A stretch of DNA of 53,554 bases from Thermoflexus hugenholtzii JAD2. Lineage in GTDB: Bacteria; Chloroflexota; Chloroflexia; Chloroflexales; Roseiflexaceae. The stretch covers positions 1 through 53,554 of the forward strand of contig CAMCVW010000021.1 of the NCBI GenBank assembly GCA_945881915.1. The letters are read 5' to 3'. Under the pieces are notes generated by a model. The model saw only the letters and a program-made list of their open reading frames with translations, ran no database searches and had not been told where the DNA came from. The translations under genes and the position numbers were made by a program. How positions within the stretch are numbered: position 1 is the stretch's first letter; each line of letters starts with the position of its first letter. Below are positions 17,066 through 51,428 of the stretch, piece after piece.

Positions 17066-18291
17066 CAGTGCACATCCCCGACCAGCAGTGCGTCGACGAG
17101 GCTCCCCGCTGCCAGACGCTGCTCGCCCGGGGCAATCACTAGGAGCGCATTGGCCGCGCGCATCGACAGCAATCGGCTCGAGCCCTGAGCGCCAGTGGTA
17201 ATAGCCACCAATCGACCATCCTGCCAGCGCACCGCAGCGCGCATATACTCGGGACGATCGGGCGACGGCATGATGGAATCAGCGAGATGCACGGGCACCC
17301 GTGGTCGCTCGGGGGTTGCATCTCCCATCAGTCGGCGCAATGCGGGCCGCACAAATACCTCGAACGACACAAGCGACGACACCGGATTACCCGGCAAACC
17401 GAACACAATGGTCGTGCCAACAACGGCGCACATTGTCGGTTTACCGGGTTTGAATGCGATGCGCCCGAACTGCACCTGGCCCAATTCGGCCAAGAGCGGC
17501 TTGATGAAGTCGCGCGTGCCCATCGACACACCACCACTGGTAATCAGCACATCTGCACGGGCTAATCCAGCCATCACACGGGCGCGTTGGAGCTCGGGTT
17601 GATCGGGCGCAATGCCGAGCGAAATCCCTTCGCACCCCGCGGCGGCTATTGCAGCCAACAATGCAGGCCGATTCGAATCACGCACACCGCCGTAGGGTAG
17701 TGGTTCGTCGTATTCGTAGACTTCGTCACCGGTGGACAACACCGCCACCACGGGGCGGCGGTAGACCGTGACGTGGCGCAGACCGATGTTGGTCAGCAGA
17801 CCGACGTCGCCGGCAGAGATGACGCTCCCCACCGGCATCACGACATCGCCGGCGCGCATATCGCTGCCAGGCTGAATCACACATTCACCAGCCCGTACCG
17901 TGCCCGTGTAGGTCAGTACACCGGCGACTTCTTGGGTACGTTCGACCATCACGGCTGCGTCGGCACCAGCGGGCAGTGGCGCCCCCGTCATAATGCGGAC
18001 GGCCTGGCCAGGGAGCAGCTGCGCGAGTGTGTCGCCGCCCGCAGTCAATTCTGCGACCACGGGGCGGGCGATGTCGCCGTCCGCGCTGCGGATGGCATAG
18101 CCGTCGATGGTCGACCGTGGCTCGGTAGGCATGTCGGCCGGTGCGGTGACGATGTGTGCGACGACGCGCCCTGCCGCGCGATGCGACAAGACGCGTTCGG
18201 TACCCAACGGGGTCGCACTTACCCGAGCAATTGCGGCGTGGGCATCGGCCACACTGACCATCGGCCAGGACGATTCACGCTGCATGCTCAT
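17065..18291 (-). CDS. moeA: Molybdopterin molybdenumtransferase MoeA
   Basis: 408 aa, the usual MoeA length. Domain order: N-terminal domain with STIDGYAIRSAD and GQAVRIMTGAPLPAGADAAVMVE, then the MoCF/MPT-binding fold with VLSTGDEVYE, SNRPALLAAI and the ITSGGVSMGTRDF loop, and a C-terminal beta-barrel after GNPVSSLVSFEVF. MoeA inserts molybdate into adenylylated molybdopterin during cofactor synthesis in the cytoplasm. Other Mo-cofactor genes are not in this window. CAGGAG lies 6 nt before the ATG. It follows trxB by 20 nt on the same strand. Confidence 0.95.
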   Translation of the reverse strand: MSMQRESSWPMVSVADAHAAIARVSATPLGTERVLSHRAAGRVVAHIVTAPADMPTEPRSTIDGYAIRSADGDIARPVVAELTAGGDTLAQLLPGQAVRIMTGAPLPAGADAAVMVERTQEVAGVLTYTGTVRAGECVIQPGSDMRAGDVVMPVGSVISAGDVGLLTNIGLRHVTVYRRPVVAVLSTGDEVYEYDEPLPYGGVRDSNRPALLAAIAAAGCEGISLGIAPDQPELQRARVMAGLARADVLITSGGVSMGTRDFIKPLLAELGQVQFGRIAFKPGKPTMCAVVGTTIVFGLPGNPVSSLVSFEVFVRPALRRLMGDATPERPRVPVHLADSIMPSPDRPEYMRAAVRWQDGRLVAITTGAQGSSRLLSMRAANALLVIAPGEQRLAAGSLVDALLVGDVH

Positions 18292-19265: not shown

Positions 19266-19412
19266 GAGTGCCTCGTTTCGTGATGTCTTGTACCGCATCA
19301 GATAGCGGTGTATTGCCTGTATTTTAGCACATTTCGTTTTTGTAGCGTGCCCATGCGTACCTTTTTTGCATGTTCTAACGGTATTCATAGAAACAGCCGA
19401 AAAGGAGTCGCC

Positions 19413-20834
19413 ATGCTCGCTCTCATCCTCGTGCTCCAGTTACTCATCAACGAAGTCATGCCCGCCCCCGCTGCTGGGCCTGAATGGGTCGAACTCTACA
19501 ACCCCACCGATGCCGACATCGCTGTAGCTGGCTGGCATATCGACGATGATACTCCGGGGGGCACGCAAACGACCATCCCGCCTGGCAGTATTGTGCCTGC
19601 GCGCGGCTACCTCGTGGTCACGCTGACCGCCGCAATCCTCAACAACACCGGCGATAGCGTCACACTGCTCGGCCCAGACGGAACAACCGTCGACGTCGTT
19701 GCGTTCGGCGCACTCAAAGGCAGCGAGAGCTATGCCCGCAGCCCCGATGGCAGCACAATCTGGCAGAAAACGACACCGTCGGCCGGCACACAAAACCCTG
19801 CTCCCACGCCGATCTTCCCTTCCGCGACGGTGTCGCCAACTCCACAACCCTCTGCAACTGCTGTCACGACCTTCCTTCCGACAATCACCGGCATTATCCT
19901 TGCGACGGTTCCACCCACACCGCCCGCGCTGACCGACACCGCTATCCCGCTACCGACGCAGTCACCCACCATCATCGCGACCGTCGTTGTCACGCAAACG
20001 CCGCACGCCGCCGATACGCCGACCGAGACAGATACCCCATCTTCAACCAGAACCCCTTCGCCGACCAAAACTCCCAGCGTGACACGCACACCATCCGAGA
20101 CCAAGACACCGTCACCGACCAGAACTTCCTCCGAGACCAAAACCCCTTCGACAACCAGAACTCCTTCCGTGACCAAAACGCCTTCGACGACCAAAACCCC
20201 ATCACTCACCAAAACCCCATCATTCACGAAAACCCCATCACTCACCAAAACCCCATCACTCACCAAAACCCCATCGCTCACCAAAACCCCATCACTCACC
20301 AAATCACCATCGCTCACCAAAACCCCATCGCTCACCAAATCACCATCACTCACCAAAACTCCATCGCTCACCAAAACTCCATCACTCACCAAATCACCGT
20401 CGCGGACTAAAAACCCTGCGCAGACCAAGCGCACCAGTCGTATTTTGCAGCCGACAGCGGCACCGGCACGATCACAATCGACATCTGGCGGGATTGTGGC
20501 CCGAACGACCACGACGACCGGCGTTGTTGCAGACCGTATCGTGGCCAGTCCGGTATTGGCAATTATGGTTGCTATCAAGAATCCAAGTCCCGTGCCTGCG
20601 ACGGCCACTGCGCTACCAACCAGCCTGCCGACTCCGGCAGCAGCAGCAATGACGGACATCCCCGCTCCACCGCGGTCATTCCCAGTCATGCCGGTTGCGG
20701 GGGTGTTGCTCTTGGCAGGTTGGATAGGACTGCGTCTGTCTGCACCGGCGACTGCGCCCGTGGTATACTCGCAAGTAGACGAAGACGCGGAGAGTAGTGA
20801 ATCCGACCTGCCCAGCGAGTCGAGAGCGGTGTGA
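19413..20834 (+). CDS. Lamin-tail-domain surface protein with Thr/Pro/Ser hexapeptide repeats and C-terminal membrane anchor
   Basis: 473 aa. A short hydrophobic N-terminus (MLALILVLQLLINEV) leads directly into a lamin-tail domain (about 12-118: PEWVELYNPTDADIAVAGW, then the GGTQTTIPPGSIVPARGYL block). A low-complexity Thr/Pro region follows. From about residue 205 to 335 there are many copies of the hexapeptide TPSLTK (variants with S, E, V, F). A membrane segment lies near 427-445 (VAGVLLLAGWIGLRL), then an acidic tail of about 28 residues. AAGGAG precedes the ATG at 19413. It is probably anchored outside the cell with the repeats as a stalk, perhaps O-glycosylated. The tail codons double as the T-box Stem I of glyS. 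Confidence 0.82.
   Translation: MLALILVLQLLINEVMPAPAAGPEWVELYNPTDADIAVAGWHIDDDTPGGTQTTIPPGSIVPARGYLVVTLTAAILNNTGDSVTLLGPDGTTVDVVAFGALKGSESYARSPDGSTIWQKTTPSAGTQNPAPTPIFPSATVSPTPQPSATAVTTFLPTITGIILATVPPTPPALTDTAIPLPTQSPTIIATVVVTQTPHAADTPTETDTPSSTRTPSPTKTPSVTRTPSETKTPSPTRTSSETKTPSTTRTPSVTKTPSTTKTPSLTKTPSFTKTPSLTKTPSLTKTPSLTKTPSLTKSPSLTKTPSLTKSPSLTKTPSLTKTPSLTKSPSRTKNPAQTKRTSRILQPTAAPARSQSTSGGIVARTTTTTGVVADRIVASPVLAIMVAIKNPSPVPATATALPTSLPTPAAAAMTDIPAPPRSFPVMPVAGVLLLAGWIGLRLSAPATAPVVYSQVDEDAESSESDLPSESRAV
20030..20412 (+). repeat. 18-nt tandem repeats coding for TPSLTK hexapeptides
   Basis: In-frame 18-nt units of the type CTCACCAAAACCCCATCA, almost identical from about 20200 to 20400 and more diverged before that. 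The near identity suggests recent expansion and predicts copy-number differences between strains. Confidence 0.85.
20761..20769 (+). promoter_or_regulatory. Extended -10 promoter of the glyS T-box leader, inside the upstream gene
   Basis: TGGTATACT (TGn plus TATACT). A start 6-8 nt downstream coincides with the first bases of Stem I at 20774. No good -35 box is seen, as is usual for extended -10 promoters. Confidence 0.55.
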
Positions 20835-21001: not shown

Positions 21002-22597
21002 ATGCCGGCAGCATCCCTCGAACAGTTGGCGTCACTGTGCAAACGGCGCGGATTTATCTTCCCCAGTTCCGATATCTACGGCGGTATTCAAGGCGTCTTC
21101 GACTACGGCCCGCTCGGTGTCGAACTCAAAAACAACATCATCAACTCGTGGTGGCGTACCAACGTCTATGCCCGAGACGACATGGAAGGCCTCGACGCAG
21201 CCATTCTGATGAACAAACTGGTGTGGAAGTATTCGGGCCACGAAGAGACCTTCAACGACCCCCTCGTCGACTGCCGCGCCTGCAAAGGCCGTTGGCGGGC
21301 AGACCACATCAACGGCAAATGCCCCAGCTGTGGATCGAGTGATTTGACCGAAGCACGGCCGTTCAACATGATGTTCAAAACTGCCGTCGGCCCTGTCGCC
21401 GATAGTGAGTCGTTTGCGTATCTGCGACCCGAGACGGCTCAGGGAATTTTTGCCAACTTCAATAATGTCTTGTCCAGTACCAGCCGCAAACTGCCGTTCG
21501 GGATTGCCCAGGTGGGCAAGGCGTTCCGCAACGAAATCAATCCGCGCAACTTTTTGTTCCGCGTCCGTGAATTCGAACAGATGGAAATCGAGTTCTTTGT
21601 CATGCCTGGCACCGACGAAGAATGGCACGAAAAGTGGCTCGAAGCCCGCCTCGCCTGGTGGGAATCCATCGGCGTGCCCCGTTCCAAAATCCAGATCTAC
21701 GACGTCCCCAAAGACGGCTTGGCCCACTACTCGAAGCGCACGTACGACCTGATGTACGACTACCCCACCCTGGGCTACGAAGAGATTGAAGGCATCGCCA
21801 GCCGCAGCGACTACGACCTCGGTTCGCATTCACGCGACCAAGAGAACCTCAACATCAGCGCCAAAGTCAGTGTCAACCGTGACAGCGTCGCCAAGTTGAA
21901 CTACTACGACCAGCCCAACAACCGTCACCTCGTGCCGTACGTCATCGAGCCATCGGCCGGCGTGGGTCGTTGCTTCTTGGCGGTGTTGTCCGAAGCCTAC
22001 GACGAACAGATGGTCAAAGAGCCCACCGCCGACAAGCTCGAAGCAATCCAGGCGGCCCTCGACACCTACAAAAAATCCGTCAGTCGCAGCGAAAAACTGA
22101 GTCCTGAACAGCGTGATGCCATCATCGCGCAGTCGGATGCGATTAGCGCAGACTTGAGCAAAAACCTGCCGCAGATCGAGTCGATGCTTGCCTTGCCCGG
22201 TGCAGACGGCATCGAGGTCGGCAAAAAACTACGCGGCGTGACGCAACCGGTGGTCGATGAGTTCTACCGCACGGTGCTGCACCTCAAGCCGCACCTTGCG
22301 CCGATCAAGGTTGCAGTATTCCCCCTCAAGCGGAACCACGACGGGCTGGTCGCAATGGCCAAGGGCATCCGCACCGATTTGCAACTCAACGCCGACATGC
22401 GCACCGTCTATGACGACACTGGAGCGATTGGCAAGCTGTATCGCCGCCAAGACGAAATCGGTACGCCGTTCTGCGTCACGGTCGACTTCCAATCTCTCGA
22501 AGACCAAACCGTCACTGTTCGCGATCGCGACACGATGCTCCAAGAGCGCATTTTGGCGAGCGACCTCGAGCAGTACGTGCGTGAACGCTCACGATGA
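21002..22597 (+). CDS. glyS: Glycyl-tRNA synthetase, alpha2 (single-chain) type
   Basis: 531 aa class II synthetase. It begins [20 protein letters not shown] followed by [19 protein letters not shown] four-Cys zinc-knuckle insert is present ([18 protein letters not shown]), then RPETAQGIF and motif 2 around [12 protein letters not shown], motif 3 around [14 protein letters not shown], and a C-terminal anticodon-binding domain ([12 protein letters not shown]). This single-chain form is the one found in eukaryotes, archaea and some bacteria, unlike the two-subunit glyQ/glyS. AGGAG lies before ATG 21002. Expression is controlled by the glycine T-box directly upstream. A terminator hairpin follows at 22658. 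Confidence 0.96.
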
Positions 22598-22643
22598 ATT
22601 ATGAATTATGAATTAGGAATTTTGAATTAGGAATTAGGAATTG
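22595..22643 (+). repeat. AT-rich heptanucleotide repeat (copy 1)
   Basis: Seven units of consensus (T/G)GAATT(A/T/G), beginning at the glyS stop codon. The same heptamer recurs inverted at 49164-49198 and directly at 53349-53369. Tandem heptamers of this kind are known in cyanobacteria as STRR elements; no function is visible. Confidence 0.75.
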
Positions 22644-44672: not shown

Positions 44673-46325
44673 CTAAACCCACAGCGCAATCACCCAACCC
44701 AGCACATACAGCAGACCAAAGCGCATGTGGAGAACGGCTGAGCCGCGCAGGACGGAATGAAGCTTTTCGGCGGCGTCCTCGGTCGCTGCGGTGCGCATCA
44801 AGCGCCACGCCAACGGTGCCACTGCATAGCAGAGGAGCGTCGGCCACGGCGCCAATCCCAGTGCGATGAGTACCAGCACGCTGACAAAAGCACCGCCCAC
44901 CAGCACATAGAACTCGACGCGCGCGCCGGCGCGACCCAACATGGTGGCCAGGGTACGCTTGTGATTGAGGATGTCGGTGTCGATGTCGCGCAGATTGTTG
45001 GCGTGCAGAATCGCTGCCACTACAAATGCCACGGGCAGCGATGCCCAGATGGCCGGCCACGAGACGACCGGTTGCTGCAGGTAGTACGACCCCAACACCA
45101 TCACTGGCCCCATAAAGATGAACACCGCCAGCTCGCCCAAGCCCACATAGGCCAATGCGAACGGCCCCGCGGTATAGAAGTAGCCCACCGCCACACTACA
45201 CAACCCGAGCCAAAAGATGAACGGACCCGTCATGTAAACAAGGTACAACCCAATGGTTGAGCCGACGGCAAACGCGATGATGCCGGCCCAAAATATCTGG
45301 TTGGGCGTCATTTCGCCGCGGAGCAACGCGCCACCGGTACCCTTGACCGCCGGGGTGTCCGTGCCTTTTTTGTAGTCGTAGTAGTCGTTCATCAGGTTCG
45401 TCCCGCCCTGGATGGCAATCGACCCGATCAGCGCCAACGCCAGCCATAGCCAGTTGAGCCCACCCTGCTGCGCGGCAATGGAAGCGCCGAGGAGCACCGG
45501 GATGATGGCTGCGGTATAACTCCACGGGCGCACGGCACCCCACCATTTTTTGAGCAACGGCATACGTGACTCCTTGACGGTGTGGCGCCAGGGCACCACT
45601 AACCGCTCGACTTCGTCCAATCCAATCGTGATTATCCAGCCCAATGCAGCGATGACACACACCGACGCCATCATGTCGGCGATGGAATACAACTCGTACG
45701 ACTGCCAGATGCGGTAGCCGATGCCATTACTGGCCCCAACGAACTCCACGCCGACGATGAGCGTCAGCGCAAACCCCATCGCCAGCTTCCAGCCTTCGAT
45801 AATCGCGGGTAGGCTGGCGGGCAGCGCCACGGTGCGGAACAACGTCCGTTGATTGGCACCATAGACGCGACCGACCTCGAAGAAGCGTTGGTCGATTTGC
45901 ATCACCCCGCCGATGGTGTGAATCACCACCATCAAAAAGACACTGATGGCCACCGTGACGATTTTGCTCACTTCGCCAATCCCCAGCACCACGATCACCA
46001 ATGGCAACAAGGCGATTTTGGGGACCGGGTAGAGCATCGTCGCTAACGGGCGCACCAGCAGATAGACCGTGCGATTCAAGCCGCTCCAGATGCCCAACAG
46101 TGTGGCGGGAATAGCGCCAATCAAAAAGCCCAGCGCGATGCGTCTGCTACTAATCAGCACATCGGCCACCATCGATCCGTCGGCCAAGCCTTTTGCTAAT
46201 GCGACCACGACCTCGCTGGGCGGCGGGATGAAAATCCGATTGAGCAGGCCCAGCTGGACGGCCGCCTCCCACAGCACCACCAACAGCAGCGGCGACAACC
46301 ACGACAACCAGCGGTTTTGGGGCAT
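44673..46325 (-). CDS. In-frame fusion: SsuC/TauC-type ABC permease with a MenA/UbiA prenyltransferase
   Basis: 550 aa. Residues 1-252 are a complete six-helix ABC permease of the sulfonate/nitrate/thiamine-precursor class, with the EAA loop GANQRTLFRTVALPASLPAI. Residues 255-550 are a complete UbiA-family enzyme with both Asp-rich sites: NDYYDYKKGTD and NNLRDIDTDILNHKRTLA, most like 1,4-dihydroxy-2-naphthoate prenyltransferase (MenA). At the junction, AGGAG (45570-45574) lies 6 nt before an internal ATG (45561-45563, MPLLKKWW). Between them TCA (45567-45569) would be a TGA stop with one base change. So the fusion looks like a recent stop loss or a sequencing error; both products may be made. 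The ATPase gene overlaps upstream by one base. Confidence 0.85.
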   Translation of the reverse strand: MPQNRWLSWLSPLLLVVLWEAAVQLGLLNRIFIPPPSEVVVALAKGLADGSMVADVLISSRRIALGFLIGAIPATLLGIWSGLNRTVYLLVRPLATMLYPVPKIALLPLVIVVLGIGEVSKIVTVAISVFLMVVIHTIGGVMQIDQRFFEVGRVYGANQRTLFRTVALPASLPAIIEGWKLAMGFALTLIVGVEFVGASNGIGYRIWQSYELYSIADMMASVCVIAALGWIITIGLDEVERLVVPWRHTVKESRMPLLKKWWGAVRPWSYTAAIIPVLLGASIAAQQGGLNWLWLALALIGSIAIQGGTNLMNDYYDYKKGTDTPAVKGTGGALLRGEMTPNQIFWAGIIAFAVGSTIGLYLVYMTGPFIFWLGLCSVAVGYFYTAGPFALAYVGLGELAVFIFMGPVMVLGSYYLQQPVVSWPAIWASLPVAFVVAAILHANNLRDIDTDILNHKRTLATMLGRAGARVEFYVLVGGAFVSVLVLIALGLAPWPTLLCYAVAPLAWRLMRTAATEDAAEKLHSVLRGSAVLHMRFGLLYVLGWVIALWV

Positions 46326-47166: not shown

Positions 47167-48246
47167 TTACTTGCCGGTTGCCCGGGCAACCAGGTCTGTG
47201 TTGATCAACGTATTGATGTCTAGGTCTGTATCATACTCCAAATAGCCGCGCTCGCGGAAGTACGACTGCAGCGTCTTGAGGTTTTCGACCGGAATGACGC
47301 CCTCGGCGTTGTAATGGGGTGCGGACGCTTTTTCGACCACGGCTGCTGGGACCTTGGTGTACTTTTCGATAATCGCGGCAATCTCGGGCGTCATGTAGTT
47401 GCCTTGCAAATCGCCGCAGGCCTTCAGGTACGCGCGCATGAAGCCTTCGGAAGTCTTGGTGTCGGCCAACATCGCCTCGCCCATGTACAGATAGGTCGCA
47501 TAGAAGCCATCGATGAAGTCGTTGGCCAAGACCGCAACCGTGCCGTTTTGGACATTGATGGTCGCCAATGGCTCACCCAGAATGGCGGCGTCGATCGAGC
47601 CGTTTTCGAGTGCTGCCGGCACATCCTTGAAGCCCACGGTGACCAACTCGATGTCGGCCATCGTCAAGCCGTTCTTGATAAGTGCCTGATCGACCCAGTA
47701 CTCGGTGGCTGCGCCAGTGGCGTTGATGGCGACCTTTTTGCCCTTGAGGTCAGCGACGGATTTGAGCTCGTCGACGCGCTTGGCACTGATGACCAGCGGG
47801 CTCGTCATCGGCGCAGATTCGTTGTGCATCGGGGCCACAATCGAGAACTTCACGCCACGGGCGGCGGCGTTGAGCAAGCCTGCACCGGCACCACCGAATG
47901 CGGCATCGAAGTTGCCTGCGGCCATCTGGACCACCGGCTCGCTGCCACCTTGGACTGGCGTCGATTCGATCTGGATGCCCTCGGCGGCGAAGTAGCCACG
48001 CTCGATGCCCACGTACAACGGTGCATAGATCATCACCGGTACAAAGCCCAAGCGCACGATTTTGAGTTCGGCGGGGGCGGCTACCGTCGCCTCAGCGGCT
48101 GCCGGCTCTGCGGTGGCGACAAGTTCGACGACAACGGTCATTTCGGCAGGGGATGGGATTGGCTCGGTGGCAGGCGCGGCAGCACCACAGCTTGCCAGAA
48201 CCATAGAAACCATCAACAGGCTTATCAAACGTTTCATTCGTTTCAC
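47167..48246 (-). CDS. ABC transporter substrate-binding lipoprotein (NMT1/SsuA-like)
   Basis: 359 aa. Signal peptide with lipobox (MVLASCG), a Thr/Pro/Ala-rich linker to about 60, then a two-lobe periplasmic-binding fold (IVRLGFVPVMIYAPLYVGIE, RGYFAAEGIQIE, DLKGKKVAINATGAATEYW, DAAILGEPLATINVQNG). This is the class that binds aliphatic sulfonates, nitrate, taurine or thiamine precursors. The ligand cannot be read from sequence; the prenyltransferase fused to the partner permease would fit an aromatic or quinone precursor, but that is a guess. Start is GTG 48246 or ATG 48237; neither has a clear site. Confidence 0.9.
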   Translation of the reverse strand: MKRMKRLISLLMVSMVLASCGAAAPATEPIPSPAEMTVVVELVATAEPAAAEATVAAPAELKIVRLGFVPVMIYAPLYVGIERGYFAAEGIQIESTPVQGGSEPVVQMAAGNFDAAFGGAGAGLLNAAARGVKFSIVAPMHNESAPMTSPLVISAKRVDELKSVADLKGKKVAINATGAATEYWVDQALIKNGLTMADIELVTVGFKDVPAALENGSIDAAILGEPLATINVQNGTVAVLANDFIDGFYATYLYMGEAMLADTKTSEGFMRAYLKACGDLQGNYMTPEIAAIIEKYTKVPAAVVEKASAPHYNAEGVIPVENLKTLQSYFRERGYLEYDTDLDINTLINTDLVARATGK

Positions 48247-48317
48247 ACTTTCGTCTTACAGTCTCTGTAACGGACAACATTGTACCAGAATTCACGACGT
48301 CGGGGGCGTTAAGATAG

Positions 48318-49124
48318 ACGGGCCATGGAATCGTGTGCGAGATGGAGAATTACTGTGTGGATGTGGTGCAGTTCATCTGAGATGCAGCGCTGTAAGCATC
48401 TTGTACACGATGGCATGCCGACGTCGGACATTTGCCATACGACATCGCCGACAGTCGGCATGCCATGACGGTGTCCCGTCATTCCATGGGCCGTGGCGTT
48501 TGTGTCGGGCGCAGCGATTGTCCGGGCCATGGAATCGTGTGCGAGATGCAATACGTGTACGCCCCGCGATACAACAACTACTCTCTGAAACCTACTCACT
48601 GATAACTATAAATAGTCGGCATGCCATGACGGCAGGGGGAATCGTATGCCAGACGGCGAATCACAGCGTATCTGAGATGCAGTCAAGTAAGCATCTCATA
48701 CACGATGGCATGCCGACGACGGACAATTGCCATACGACAACGCCGATAGTCGGCATGCCATCACGGCAGGGGGAATCGTGTGCACGATGGCGAATCTCAG
48801 CGTATCTGAGATGCAGTCAAGTAAGCATCTTGTACACGATGGCATGCCGACGACGGACATTTGCCATACGACATCGCCGACAGTCGGCATGCCATGACGG
48901 CAGGGGGAATCGTATGCAAGATGGAGAATCACAGCGTATCTGAGATGCAGTCAAGTAAGCATCTTGTACACGATGGCATGCCGACGACGGCAGGGGGAAT
49001 CGTGTGCAAGATGGCGAATCACAGCGTATCTGAGATGCAGTCAAGTAAGCATCTTGTACACGATGGCATGCCGACGACGGACAATTGCCATACGACATCG
49101 CCGACAGTCGGCATGCCATGACGG
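48318..49124. repeat. Tandem array of 134-bp composite inverted-repeat units
   Basis: Fills the gap between two divergent genes. Each unit holds two dyads. Dyad A: ATCGTGTGCAAGATG and, 36 nt later, CATCTTGTACACGAT. Dyad B: GGCATGCCGAC and, 31 nt later, GTCGGCATGCC. Start points of GATGGCATGCC are 48409, 48704, 48838, 48972 and 49062, so the period is 134, 134, then 90. Ten GGCATGCC octamers occur (48412, 48457, 48618, 48707, 48752, 48841, 48886, 48975, 49065, 49110), spaced 45 and 89-90. The first part (48318-48610) is a diverged copy and contains a longer-spaced ATTCCATGG/CCATGGAAT pair. 134 is not a multiple of 3 and no frame is kept, so it is not protein-coding. Function unknown. Confidence 0.93.
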
Positions 49125-49163: not shown

Positions 49164-49198
49164 CAATTCATAATTCATAATTCATAATTCCTCATTCA
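49164..49198 (-). repeat. AT-rich heptanucleotide repeat (copy 2, inverted)
   Basis: Five units of TAATTCA-type heptamers, the reverse complement of the repeat at 22595 and 53349. It ends two bases before the -35 box of the kinase gene. Confidence 0.75.
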
Positions 49199-49200
49199 TT

Positions 49201-49229
49201 TTGACACTGTTCCCAGCACAACCTAAAAT
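49201..49229 (+). promoter_or_regulatory. Promoter of the GAF-GAF-PAS histidine kinase gene
   Basis: TTGACA (49201-49206), 17-nt spacer, TAAAAT (49224-49229), about 46 nt before the ATG. Near-consensus sigma70 form, placed just after the repeat array. Confidence 0.75.
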
Positions 49230-49274: not shown

Positions 49275-51428
49275 ATGCCATCCACAACACCACTCACCCA
49301 ACCGCATCTGCGGGTCATCGCAGCATGTGCCAAAGCGCTGAACACCGACCAGGCCTTCCCTACCCGCGTCGAGCAGGTATTTGTGTTGTTGCGCACGGTC
49401 GTCTCGTTCGACGAGGTGCGTTTGACGTACTGGACGGACTTCCCCACGCACGAGGGGCTCGTCCACGTCGCCGGCGGGGGCACCTGGGGCATCCCATGGG
49501 ACGACGATATGGTGCAGACCTGCATCGCCACCCAGAGCCCGCAGACGCGCGACGGCACCTTCGAATTGCCCGCCCGCCCCGGCGAATTCATCAGCCGCCT
49601 GTATACCAGCCACTGCGTCCCCATCGTGGCCAACGGGGAGGTCTATGGCGTCTTTGCCTATCGTACCGATGCTAATCACCCCGCCAACAGCCGTGACCTG
49701 GCCACCATCGACGCCATCATCCCGCTCCTTGCCACCCAGCTCGTGCTCAGCGCCGCCACGACCCCACATTCGAATCACGACGAGCGCTTGCTGCAGGCTG
49801 CCCGCAAGCAACTGCGTATCGTCGATGTGATGGCGCAGCTGCGCACCGAATTCGATCCACCCATCCCGCTGCATGCACTCCTGCCGATGATTTTGGCCCG
49901 CACCGTGCAGTACACCGGCGCCGAATACGGCAGTGTCGTCTTGGTCGACGCCGAACGCCAAGAAATAGAGCTCATCGCCGTGCATGGCTACCACGTCAAC
50001 ACGCTCCACTCCGGGGCGGTCGAACACATCCGCCACCGTTGGAACTGGGACAGCGGCATTGCCGGCAAGGTCGCCCGTTCGGGTCGCCCACTCATGCTGA
50101 CCGAGGTCCACGACGACGTCGACTACTTCTATACCGACCGCCCCGTACTCCGCGCCAAGCTCGCCATTCCGCTGACCGTCGATAAACGCGTCGAAGCAAT
50201 CCTCAGCGTCGACAGCGTGCGCATTGACGCCTTTGGAGAACACGAATCGGCCCTGGCCCTGGGCATCGCCGAGGTGGCCGCGCAGCCGCTGCGCCGGGCC
50301 ATCCGCTATCAAGAGCTCCTCGAACGGAGCACGCAGCTCAATCAGGTCTTCCAGAGCATCCCATCTGGCCTGGTCCTCATCGATCGCTTCGGGCAAGTCT
50401 TGCGCACCAACCCGGCCTTCCTGCACATCTGGGGACTGACTGCCGAACAAGTCGGCCCTGGATTCCGCATCCCGTTCGACATGTTGGCGCTGCTGTTGCC
50501 GCGCTTCATCGACTCCAATGCGTTCTCGCAATTCAGTGATCAGGCCCACACCAAACCCGACCAGGAATTTTCGCTCAGCCTCAAGCTACGCAACCCGCAC
50601 CAAGAACTGCAAATTCTATCGGTGCCCACCCGCGACAACAGCGAACACATCACCGGCCGCATCTGGGTCATCAACGACACCACGCGTGAGACCGAGGCAG
50701 ACCGCCTCAAGAGCGAATTTGCCTCGCTCGTCTCGCACGAACTGAAAACGCCGTTGACCTCAATCATGGGCTACTCCGACATTCTGCTCAATCGCGATTT
50801 GCCCAGCGAAGCCCAGAAAAATCTGCTGCGCATCCTCCACAGCGAAGCCGAAAATCTGCAGAGCCTTGTGCACGAAATGCTGGACTATGCTCGCATCGAA
50901 GCCAACACCGTGCGCATCAATCGCTGGCCTATTGCAGTAGGCGAACTCGCCGTCGATCTGGCGAAAAAGCTCCAACACAGCGTCACCTTTGCCAACCACC
51001 AGATTACCTTCGACGTTATTCCACAGCTGCCGCCGGCCTACGCCGACAAAGACCGCGTGCGCCAGATTTTGACCAACCTGATATCGAACGCAGCCAAGTA
51101 CTCACCCGACGGCGGCACCATCACCGTCCGCGTGCGCGAGCTGCACAATGCGCCTGCAAAGCACCCCGACGGCCAATTCCTGCATATCAGCGTCAATGAC
51201 GAGGGCATCGGCATCACCGCCGAAAATCTGTCGCGCATCTGGGATCGCTTCGTGCGGGTCGACACCAGCAATACCAAGAGCATCGGCGGCACCGGCTTGG
51301 GACTGACCATTGTCAAAGGGCTGGTCGAACTGCATGGCGGCCGTGCCTGGGCACACAGCGAAATCAACAAAGGCAGTTCCTTCCACTTTTCGTTGCCCAT
51401 TGCCACGGATTTGGCGCACCAAGAGTAA
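49275..51428 (+). CDS. Soluble GAF-GAF-PAS sensor histidine kinase
   Basis: 717 aa, no membrane segments. Two GAF-type sensor domains (about residues 10-165 and 180-350, the second with YTGAEYGSVVLVD and a GIAGKVARSGRPLMLTEV pattern), a PAS domain (about 355-470: LNQVFQSIPSGLVLIDRFG), HisKA with H488 (VSHELKTPLTSIMGYSDIL) and HATPase (NLISNAAKYSPDGG, DEGIGI, GGTGLGLTIVKGL). No response regulator is adjacent, so it is an orphan kinase. A near-consensus promoter precedes it. The signal is unknown. Confidence 0.93.
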   Translation: MPSTTPLTQPHLRVIAACAKALNTDQAFPTRVEQVFVLLRTVVSFDEVRLTYWTDFPTHEGLVHVAGGGTWGIPWDDDMVQTCIATQSPQTRDGTFELPARPGEFISRLYTSHCVPIVANGEVYGVFAYRTDANHPANSRDLATIDAIIPLLATQLVLSAATTPHSNHDERLLQAARKQLRIVDVMAQLRTEFDPPIPLHALLPMILARTVQYTGAEYGSVVLVDAERQEIELIAVHGYHVNTLHSGAVEHIRHRWNWDSGIAGKVARSGRPLMLTEVHDDVDYFYTDRPVLRAKLAIPLTVDKRVEAILSVDSVRIDAFGEHESALALGIAEVAAQPLRRAIRYQELLERSTQLNQVFQSIPSGLVLIDRFGQVLRTNPAFLHIWGLTAEQVGPGFRIPFDMLALLLPRFIDSNAFSQFSDQAHTKPDQEFSLSLKLRNPHQELQILSVPTRDNSEHITGRIWVINDTTRETEADRLKSEFASLVSHELKTPLTSIMGYSDILLNRDLPSEAQKNLLRILHSEAENLQSLVHEMLDYARIEANTVRINRWPIAVGELAVDLAKKLQHSVTFANHQITFDVIPQLPPAYADKDRVRQILTNLISNAAKYSPDGGTITVRVRELHNAPAKHPDGQFLHISVNDEGIGITAENLSRIWDRFVRVDTSNTKSIGGTGLGLTIVKGLVELHGGRAWAHSEINKGSSFHFSLPIATDLAHQE

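Follow-up and report, generated by a model that had tools for sequence, protein, structure and literature searches.

A tandem array of CGTC-tagged, long-loop hairpins between two divergent genes of a freshwater Roseiflexaceae genome

The 1028-bp spacer between an ABC substrate-binding gene (minus strand, start 48246) and a sensor kinase gene (from 49275) holds a repeat array of ∼800 bp, which is probably a copy of a non-autonomous repeated element built from hairpins that has been tandemly amplified and has partly decayed. The window, by which we mean the whole 53,554-nucleotide stretch analyzed, corresponds to contig C21 in a genome of 3.09 Mb and 63 contigs that is 98.6% complete. The family to which the array belongs has copies scattered through one clade of a genus of freshwater Roseiflexaceae, and the array is probably a local pile-up of this dispersed element, without a dedicated function for the two neighboring genes. 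Judged by analogy, the element is a long-loop variant that would work like a CGTC-tagged REP and stands outside the four published families.

Composition of the array

Ten copies of the octamer GGCATGCC are found within 706 bp (48412–49117), compared with 2.95 expected in the full window, and no shuffled sequence reached this count. The tandem array of ten octamers described at 48318–49124 in a first-pass annotation, made from the letters alone, is thus confirmed. The word CATCTTGTACACGATGGCATGCC occurs five times (0.01 expected), and Tandem Repeats Finder reports a period of 134 across 48612–48990 with 93% matches. The strict 45/89–90-bp spacing claimed for the octamers does not hold: consecutive copies are 45, 161, 89, 45, 89, 45, 89, 90, and 45 bp apart, the regular spacing being interrupted by one 161-bp step and one 90-bp unit. 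The spacing is uneven because two of the B dyads are incomplete, the octamers at 48618 and 48975 being lone remnants of a 3′ and a 5′ half, respectively. Both inverted repeats assigned to the unit (A and B) exist, but there are four complete B dyads rather than five. The parts of the array and the signals that flank it are as follows.

47167–48246, minus strand: neighboring gene, ABC substrate-binding protein (NMT1/SsuA-like), present in all genus genomes (11/11)
48280–48297, minus strand: TTGTACCAGAATTCACGA, outside the array, upstream of the substrate-binding gene and found, slightly varied, in most genus genomes
48320–48331, plus strand: left edge of the array, 3′ arm left over from a CC-type hairpin (GGGCCATGGAAT), matching in sequence the arm in complete elements of contigs C11 and C29 of the same genome
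48330–48411, plus strand: tail-tail (A) stem of unit 1, ATCGTGTGCGAGATG / CATCTTGTACACGAT, loop of 50 nt (34 nt in the other units)
48409–48471, minus strand: unit 1, complete GG-type CGTC-tagged hairpin of 57 nt with tag CCGTC (covariance model 64.0 bits, E 9e-12)
48476–48536, plus strand: CC-type CGTC-tagged hairpin, CCGTC-ATTCCATGGGCCG...CGGGCCATGGAAT-C (TTCCATGG; covariance model 54.0 bits)
48533–48548, plus strand: 5′ tail (A arm) of the CC hairpin, AATCGTGTGCGAGATG, orphaned without its 3′ partner
48615–48632, plus strand: GG-type hairpin reduced to an orphan 3′ half (GTCGGCATGCCATGACGG)
48640–48766, plus strand: unit 2, A stem with a degenerate 5′ arm and complete GG-type hairpin (48704–48766, tag mutated to CCGTG)
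48774–48900, plus strand: unit 3, A stem and complete GG-type hairpin (48838–48900)
48908–48987, plus strand: unit 4, A stem and first half only of a GG-type hairpin (90-bp unit)
48998–49124, plus strand: unit 5, A stem and complete GG-type hairpin (49062–49124)
49201–49229, plus strand: kinase promoter-like TTGACA-N17-TAAAAT, outside the array, present also in the sister genome G008
49275–51428, plus strand: neighboring gene, GAF/PAS sensor histidine kinase

The CC-type hairpin at 48476–48536 stands head to head with unit 1 (ATGACGG-tgtc-CCGTCAT), and a promoter-like sequence is indeed found behind the array, where the kinase promoter had been placed. The 134-bp unit corresponds to the tail-stem and GG-hairpin half of the complete element, and local duplication of this A+B half would account for the 134/90-bp tandem arrangement.

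Several other repeats and one unusual reading frame were noted in the window. A heptamer microsatellite (AATTCAT/ATGAATT) occurs twice, directly between the array and the kinase promoter (49165–49199) and at 22594–22642. Short-loop hairpins that fit a CGTC/TGTC/CCTC tag rule are located at positions 18072, 20936, and 28861 and may be due to chance. An 18-bp tandem repeat (20094–20417) lies within the ORF 19308–20834 and specifies a Thr/Pro/Ser/Lys-rich repeat (TPSLTK) in a probable surface protein. On the minus strand, a 550-aa ORF (44673–46325) joins an ABC permease (residues ∼6–249, SsuC/TauC-like) to a MenA-type 1,4-dihydroxy-2-naphthoate prenyltransferase (residues ∼257–546), which, if a natural fusion, would suggest that menaquinone synthesis is served by the transporter.

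The tagged hairpin and the complete element

We gathered each GGCATGCC or CCATGG dyad together with its flanks, obtaining 40 distinct hairpins from four genomes. The family comprises two arm classes, GGCATGCCGAC and TTCCATGGTCCG. GG-class hairpins follow the scheme CCGTC-AT-GGCATGCCGAC-N(29–33)-GTCGGCATGCC-AT-C-tail, and the CC (sister) class follows CCGTC-AT-TCCATGGTCCG-∼30 nt-CGGACCATGGA-AT-C-tail. All have a 13-bp stem and a loop of 29–33 nt, and hairpin lengths range from 55 to 59 nt (57 or 56 nt in 40 of 45 copies). Within the CGTC tag, T is found in 40/40 and G and the final C each in 39/40 distinct hairpins. The stem starts with AT (A first in 34/40, T second in 40/40) and closes with AT at the 3′ end (39/40 for each base), and the tail begins with C (40/40), continues with G or T, and then mostly T. 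The arms share 92% identity and the loops 37%, and no secondary structure is detectable inside the ∼30-nt loops (mean z 0.0). Arm cells are paired in 97.8% of cases, and the covariation that the first-pass annotation had suggested looking for in the dyad arms is present, with two-sided changes at 7 of the 13 pairs (47 cells compared with 13.5 in shuffles), most of them going back to a single GG-versus-CC class contrast and thus to few events. What is kept in the long-loop version is the tag, the arms, the hairpin length, and the complementarity of the tails, with the loop being free. A hairpin length held at 55–59 nt beside a free loop is not obviously needed by a pure transposition substrate and counts against the mobile-element reading.

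The complete element measures ∼205 bp and consists of a CC and a GG hairpin arranged tail to tail (contig C11 of the window genome; contigs C36, C46, and C64 of the sister genome G007). The two tails are complementary, ATCGTGTGCAAGATG / CATCTTGTACACGAT in the window species and ATCTTCATCTGGC / GCCAGATGAAGAT in G007, and they match at 12.0 of 13 positions inside a dimer compared with 6.25 across species. The outer ends CCGTC/GACGG also pair, and the tags can pair with each other in complete dimers; the element hence possesses the terminal repeats that had been reported as lacking. When folded with RNA parameters, the complete elements of C11 and G007 adopt a four-way junction with 0 unpaired junction bases, formed by the outer CCGTC/GACGG stem, the two hairpins, and the tail-tail stem. 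DNA parameters again yield the four-way form for most complete elements, and the copy in G001, in which the outer stem is damaged, does not form this fold. On contig C63 of G007, the four-helix plan is repeated with short, REP-sized hairpins.

Known palindromic repeats share many of these features. CGTC-tagged REPs (Di Nocera et al. 2013, PMC3733652) have a CGTC tag, AT at the stem start, a stem of 8–9 bp, a loop of 4–5 nt, and a CCA tail, and they form dimers with often complementary spacer ends and are reported to lack a dedicated transposase (PMC3733652). The tag, the AT, the dispersal, the head-to-head and tail-to-tail dimers, the complementary spacer ends, and the lack of a known dedicated transposase all recur in our element, but its 13-bp stem and 29–33-nt loop are longer, a C and a long pairing tail take the place of CCA, and Chloroflexota are not among the CGTC phyla of that study (PMC3733652). 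Short-loop CGTC relatives coexist with the long-loop element in the same genomes. The closest analogue of the array are the neisserial intergenic mosaic elements (NIMEs), intergenic arrays of 200–2700 bp in which a 20-bp dRS3 repeat, ATTCCC(N8)GGGAAT, flanks RS units (PMC3898611); dRS3 of Neisseria is CGTC-1 (PMC3733652). In both cases CGTC palindromes alternate with other repeat units between genes, but the likeness is one of architecture only: the sequences differ (the window arms are ATTCCATGG / ATGGCATGCC, with ∼30-nt loops), and the dimer here represents one pre-formed four-way-junction unit. Enterobacterial BIMEs are likewise mosaic, tandemly amplified palindromic intergenic units, but with other units and another tag. 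GTAG REPs and REPINs resemble the element in having a mobile unit made of two inverted, tagged palindromes and in their decayed singletons and clusters, and differ in carrying GTAG instead of CGTC; moreover, the window genome contains no RAYT. The earlier remark that such a layout belongs to no named element was wrong as to the kind of element, given CGTC REPs and NIME arrays, and right for the long-loop form.

The inverted ends (CCGTCAT...ATGACGG) would allow CCGTCATnsCATG to be read as the terminal inverted repeats of a MITE that a conventional DDE transposase mobilizes. However, half-elements on their own and partial units in tandem are frequent, unlike in a MITE bounded by such repeats, and a non-exhaustive search revealed no transposase with ends of this type, making this origin unlikely. 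The distance between octamer centers is 43–47 bp, mostly 44–45 bp, although the sequence between them is unrelated. This constancy would be expected of a chromosome-organizing site at which each NNCATGNN palindrome is bound by a nucleoid-protein dimer and two palindromes 44–45 bp apart are bridged. Yet the copies are few and clustered, half of the genus is without them, the distances cover more than one third of a helical turn, and the CGTC tags and complementary tails are left unexplained; we give such a site little credence.

A repeated structured non-coding RNA would agree with the strong folding of the units (z about −5), with the two-sided changes in the arms, and with the complementary tails. 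An Rfam search of the window, a check that the first-pass annotation had recommended, returned only a tRNA at gathering score and no match for the array unit, the loops are neither conserved nor structured, both hairpin orientations occur (here between divergent genes), and folding as DNA fits equally well. Nothing specific favors the RNA or the chromosome-organizing role, and we consider the former decidedly improbable.

Dispersal in the genus and the locus in sister species

A blastn search with the unit gave 19 matches on eight contigs of the window genome. The strict paired pattern is present there at 11 sites (0 for the reversed control), and the tag pattern at 33 sites in the window genome and 31 in G007, compared with 2 and 0 for the respective reversed controls. 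A covariance model of the tagged hairpin recovers 45 matches in the window genome, 39 in G007, 12 in G006, and a few in G001, G004, and G008, near-palindromic sites sometimes being counted on both strands so that distinct sites are fewer. Elsewhere in the genus and family the model finds practically nothing, with one marginal match among 15 other family genomes. The element itself is also found in the sister genomes G001, G006, and G007, and blastn returned 0 matches in 29 genomes of the family and order outside the genus. These copy counts derive from genome searches in which sequence was read only around matches. Contigs of the sister MAG end in or beside repeats (end of L047; starts of L057, L059, and L061), and for this reason short-read assemblies under-count the repeats and may lose genes within them. 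Named carriers are freshwater Roseiflexaceae MAGs (Lake Erken; RH-23may17-1005, RE-26jul17-102). That the unit might belong to a REP family in many genomes, an outcome the first-pass annotation had set against its own reading, is true at the level of one genus. In a genome contig collection, the paired pattern matched Roseiflexaceae MAGs and, as scattered single matches, Acidobacteriota, Prevotella, and others; the latter lack the CCGTCAT flanks, and we rejected them as a sign of spread outside the genus; a viral origin was discarded as well, the paired pattern being absent from a viral contig collection. A perfect palindrome, GAGCGGGGCTTTTTGCAAAAAGCCCCGCTC (with TTATTGCAATAA variants), is also dispersed in the window genome and its relatives, often beside CGTC elements (L023–L027, L143).

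Comparison of the locus across the genus reveals that in G002, G003, G005, G009, and G010, a repeat-free spacer of only 190–231 bp leads to the kinase, compared with 1028 bp in the window. G008 has a 452-bp spacer with a single short-loop CGTC hairpin, and in G001, G004, and G006 another gene takes the place of the kinase. The orthologous place in RH-23may17-1005 (G007) is occupied by a separate array of 139-bp units, which has the GGCATGCC arms in common with ours and differs in loops and tails, the latter being complementary internally. Two loci are shared by both species, one upstream of a TetR-like gene (contig C11 of the window genome, C64 of G007) and one in which loop and tail are nearly identical (C24 and C80, respectively). 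With one genome per species and orthologous spacers too diverged, neither a target-site duplication nor a precise empty site could be established.

As far as can be read from sequence, the locus comparison agrees with old insertions followed by lineage-specific re-amplification and does not agree with a role in controlling the gene pair. Copies would have spread as mobile DNA recognized via the tag and the hairpin, with different tail families re-amplified in separate lineages. We infer this mobility from sequence; no copy was seen to move. A regulator-binding array that controls the ABC transporter operon and the sensor kinase had been among the first proposals. It would fit the position between divergent promoters, the palindromic octamers, which suit a dimeric protein, and the occurrence of arrays at this locus in two species. 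The gene pair is kept, however, in five sister species without any repeats, the element adjoins unrelated genes on many contigs, and the A words are wholly different between the two species, so that an array specific to these two genes is very improbable. The suggestion of an amplified REP-like element fared better, given its dispersal on many contigs, its CGTC tag of the published REP superfamily, and the repeat-free gene pair in sister species.

A REPIN mobilized by a RAYT (an IS200/IS605-like Y1 transposase) would be similar in style, with tagged hairpins, dimers, and clusters, but is hardly credible here, as the tag is CGTC and not GTAG, Y1_Tnp is missing from the window genome and from every genus member rich in the element, and the Y1 loci of the genus have no tagged hairpins. 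Our search for a RAYT/IS200 mobilizer in the window genome, leaving aside any Y1 gene in unassembled sequence, gave 0 Y1_Tnp matches, and control genomes were positive. Y1 (IS200-like) genes occur only in genus members without the long-loop element (G005, G002, G010, and G009; L103–L106). A CRISPR-like reading of the variable loops of fixed length was discarded, the arms being inverted and the loop common to copies within an array.

A small GIY-YIG nuclease beside related repeats

On contig C63 of G007, two short-loop copies bracket an intact gene for a small GIY-YIG protein (L136:1431–1739, minus strand; Pfam E 2.8e-12). No second small GIY-YIG gene was detected in the genus, making this a single instance there; other genus matches are of the UvrC type, judging by their long frames. 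The protein weakly matches structures of UPF0213-type small GIY-YIG proteins, with the GIY-YIG domain in common. In the window genome we detected only UvrC and no small GIY-YIG gene, which could be missed in contigs that often end in repeats.

A tblastn search of plasmids with the C63 protein identified 33 records, mostly from Rhizobiaceae and sphingomonads, but also from Azospirillum, Neisseria, Novosphingobium, and others. Several of these genera have been named as hosts of CGTC repeats (PMC3733652). The same bracketing was observed for plasmid-borne relatives in Alphaproteobacteria, Neisseria, and Aeromonas. We picked 15 of the 33 records before their flanks had been seen and counted hairpins with CGTC, TGTC, or CCTC tags within 250 bp. 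Tagged hairpins are present on both sides in 10/15 and on at least one side in 13/15 records, which include related Rhizobiaceae and sphingomonads and therefore represent fewer than 15 independent events. The corresponding values for random anchors on ten of the same replicons are 0/1970 and 55/1970. Tagged-hairpin density amounts to 4.3 per kb at the GIY-YIG records compared with about 0.07 in the control, and among control genes that a simple ORF caller places between two intergenic gaps, 0/44 have hairpins on both sides and 1/44 on at least one side. When all 256 tetranucleotides were tried as the tag, CGTC ranked first (25) and TGGA next (14), the rank of TGGA possibly reflecting the opposite ends of these hairpins. 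Two GIY-YIG records without a call have visible TGTC-tagged palindromes with longer loops. The Pfam domain is shared by UvrC, whose loci contain 3 tagged hairpins across 68 kb; Y1 loci contain 0.

Small stand-alone GIY-YIG nucleases are candidates for the mobilizing enzymes of CGTC palindromes, including dRS3 and the window element. We propose this tentatively, as it is a correlation and outside the genus concerns short-loop CGTC repeats rather than the long-loop form. The enzyme would recognize the tagged hairpin or the tail-joined four-way junction and nick at the base; a nick at the hairpin base or junction could be followed by repair or recombination that spreads copies. SLX1 is a GIY-YIG junction nuclease that nicks branched DNA. 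The role would parallel that of RAYT for GTAG REPs. CGTC palindromes are widespread intergenic repeats in bacteria, and if the GIY-YIG link is true, a large orphan class would gain an enzyme and a mechanism. We found no link of GIY-YIG proteins with REP, dRS3, or palindromic repeats in the literature searched (most subscription journals and all preprints were outside the search), and the association is apparently unreported.

On plasmid AZO_p3 of Azospirillum lipoferum (L177:1483–1776), a GIY-YIG gene flanked by CGTC hairpins lies between sufB and sufC and splits a gene cluster for iron-sulfur assembly.
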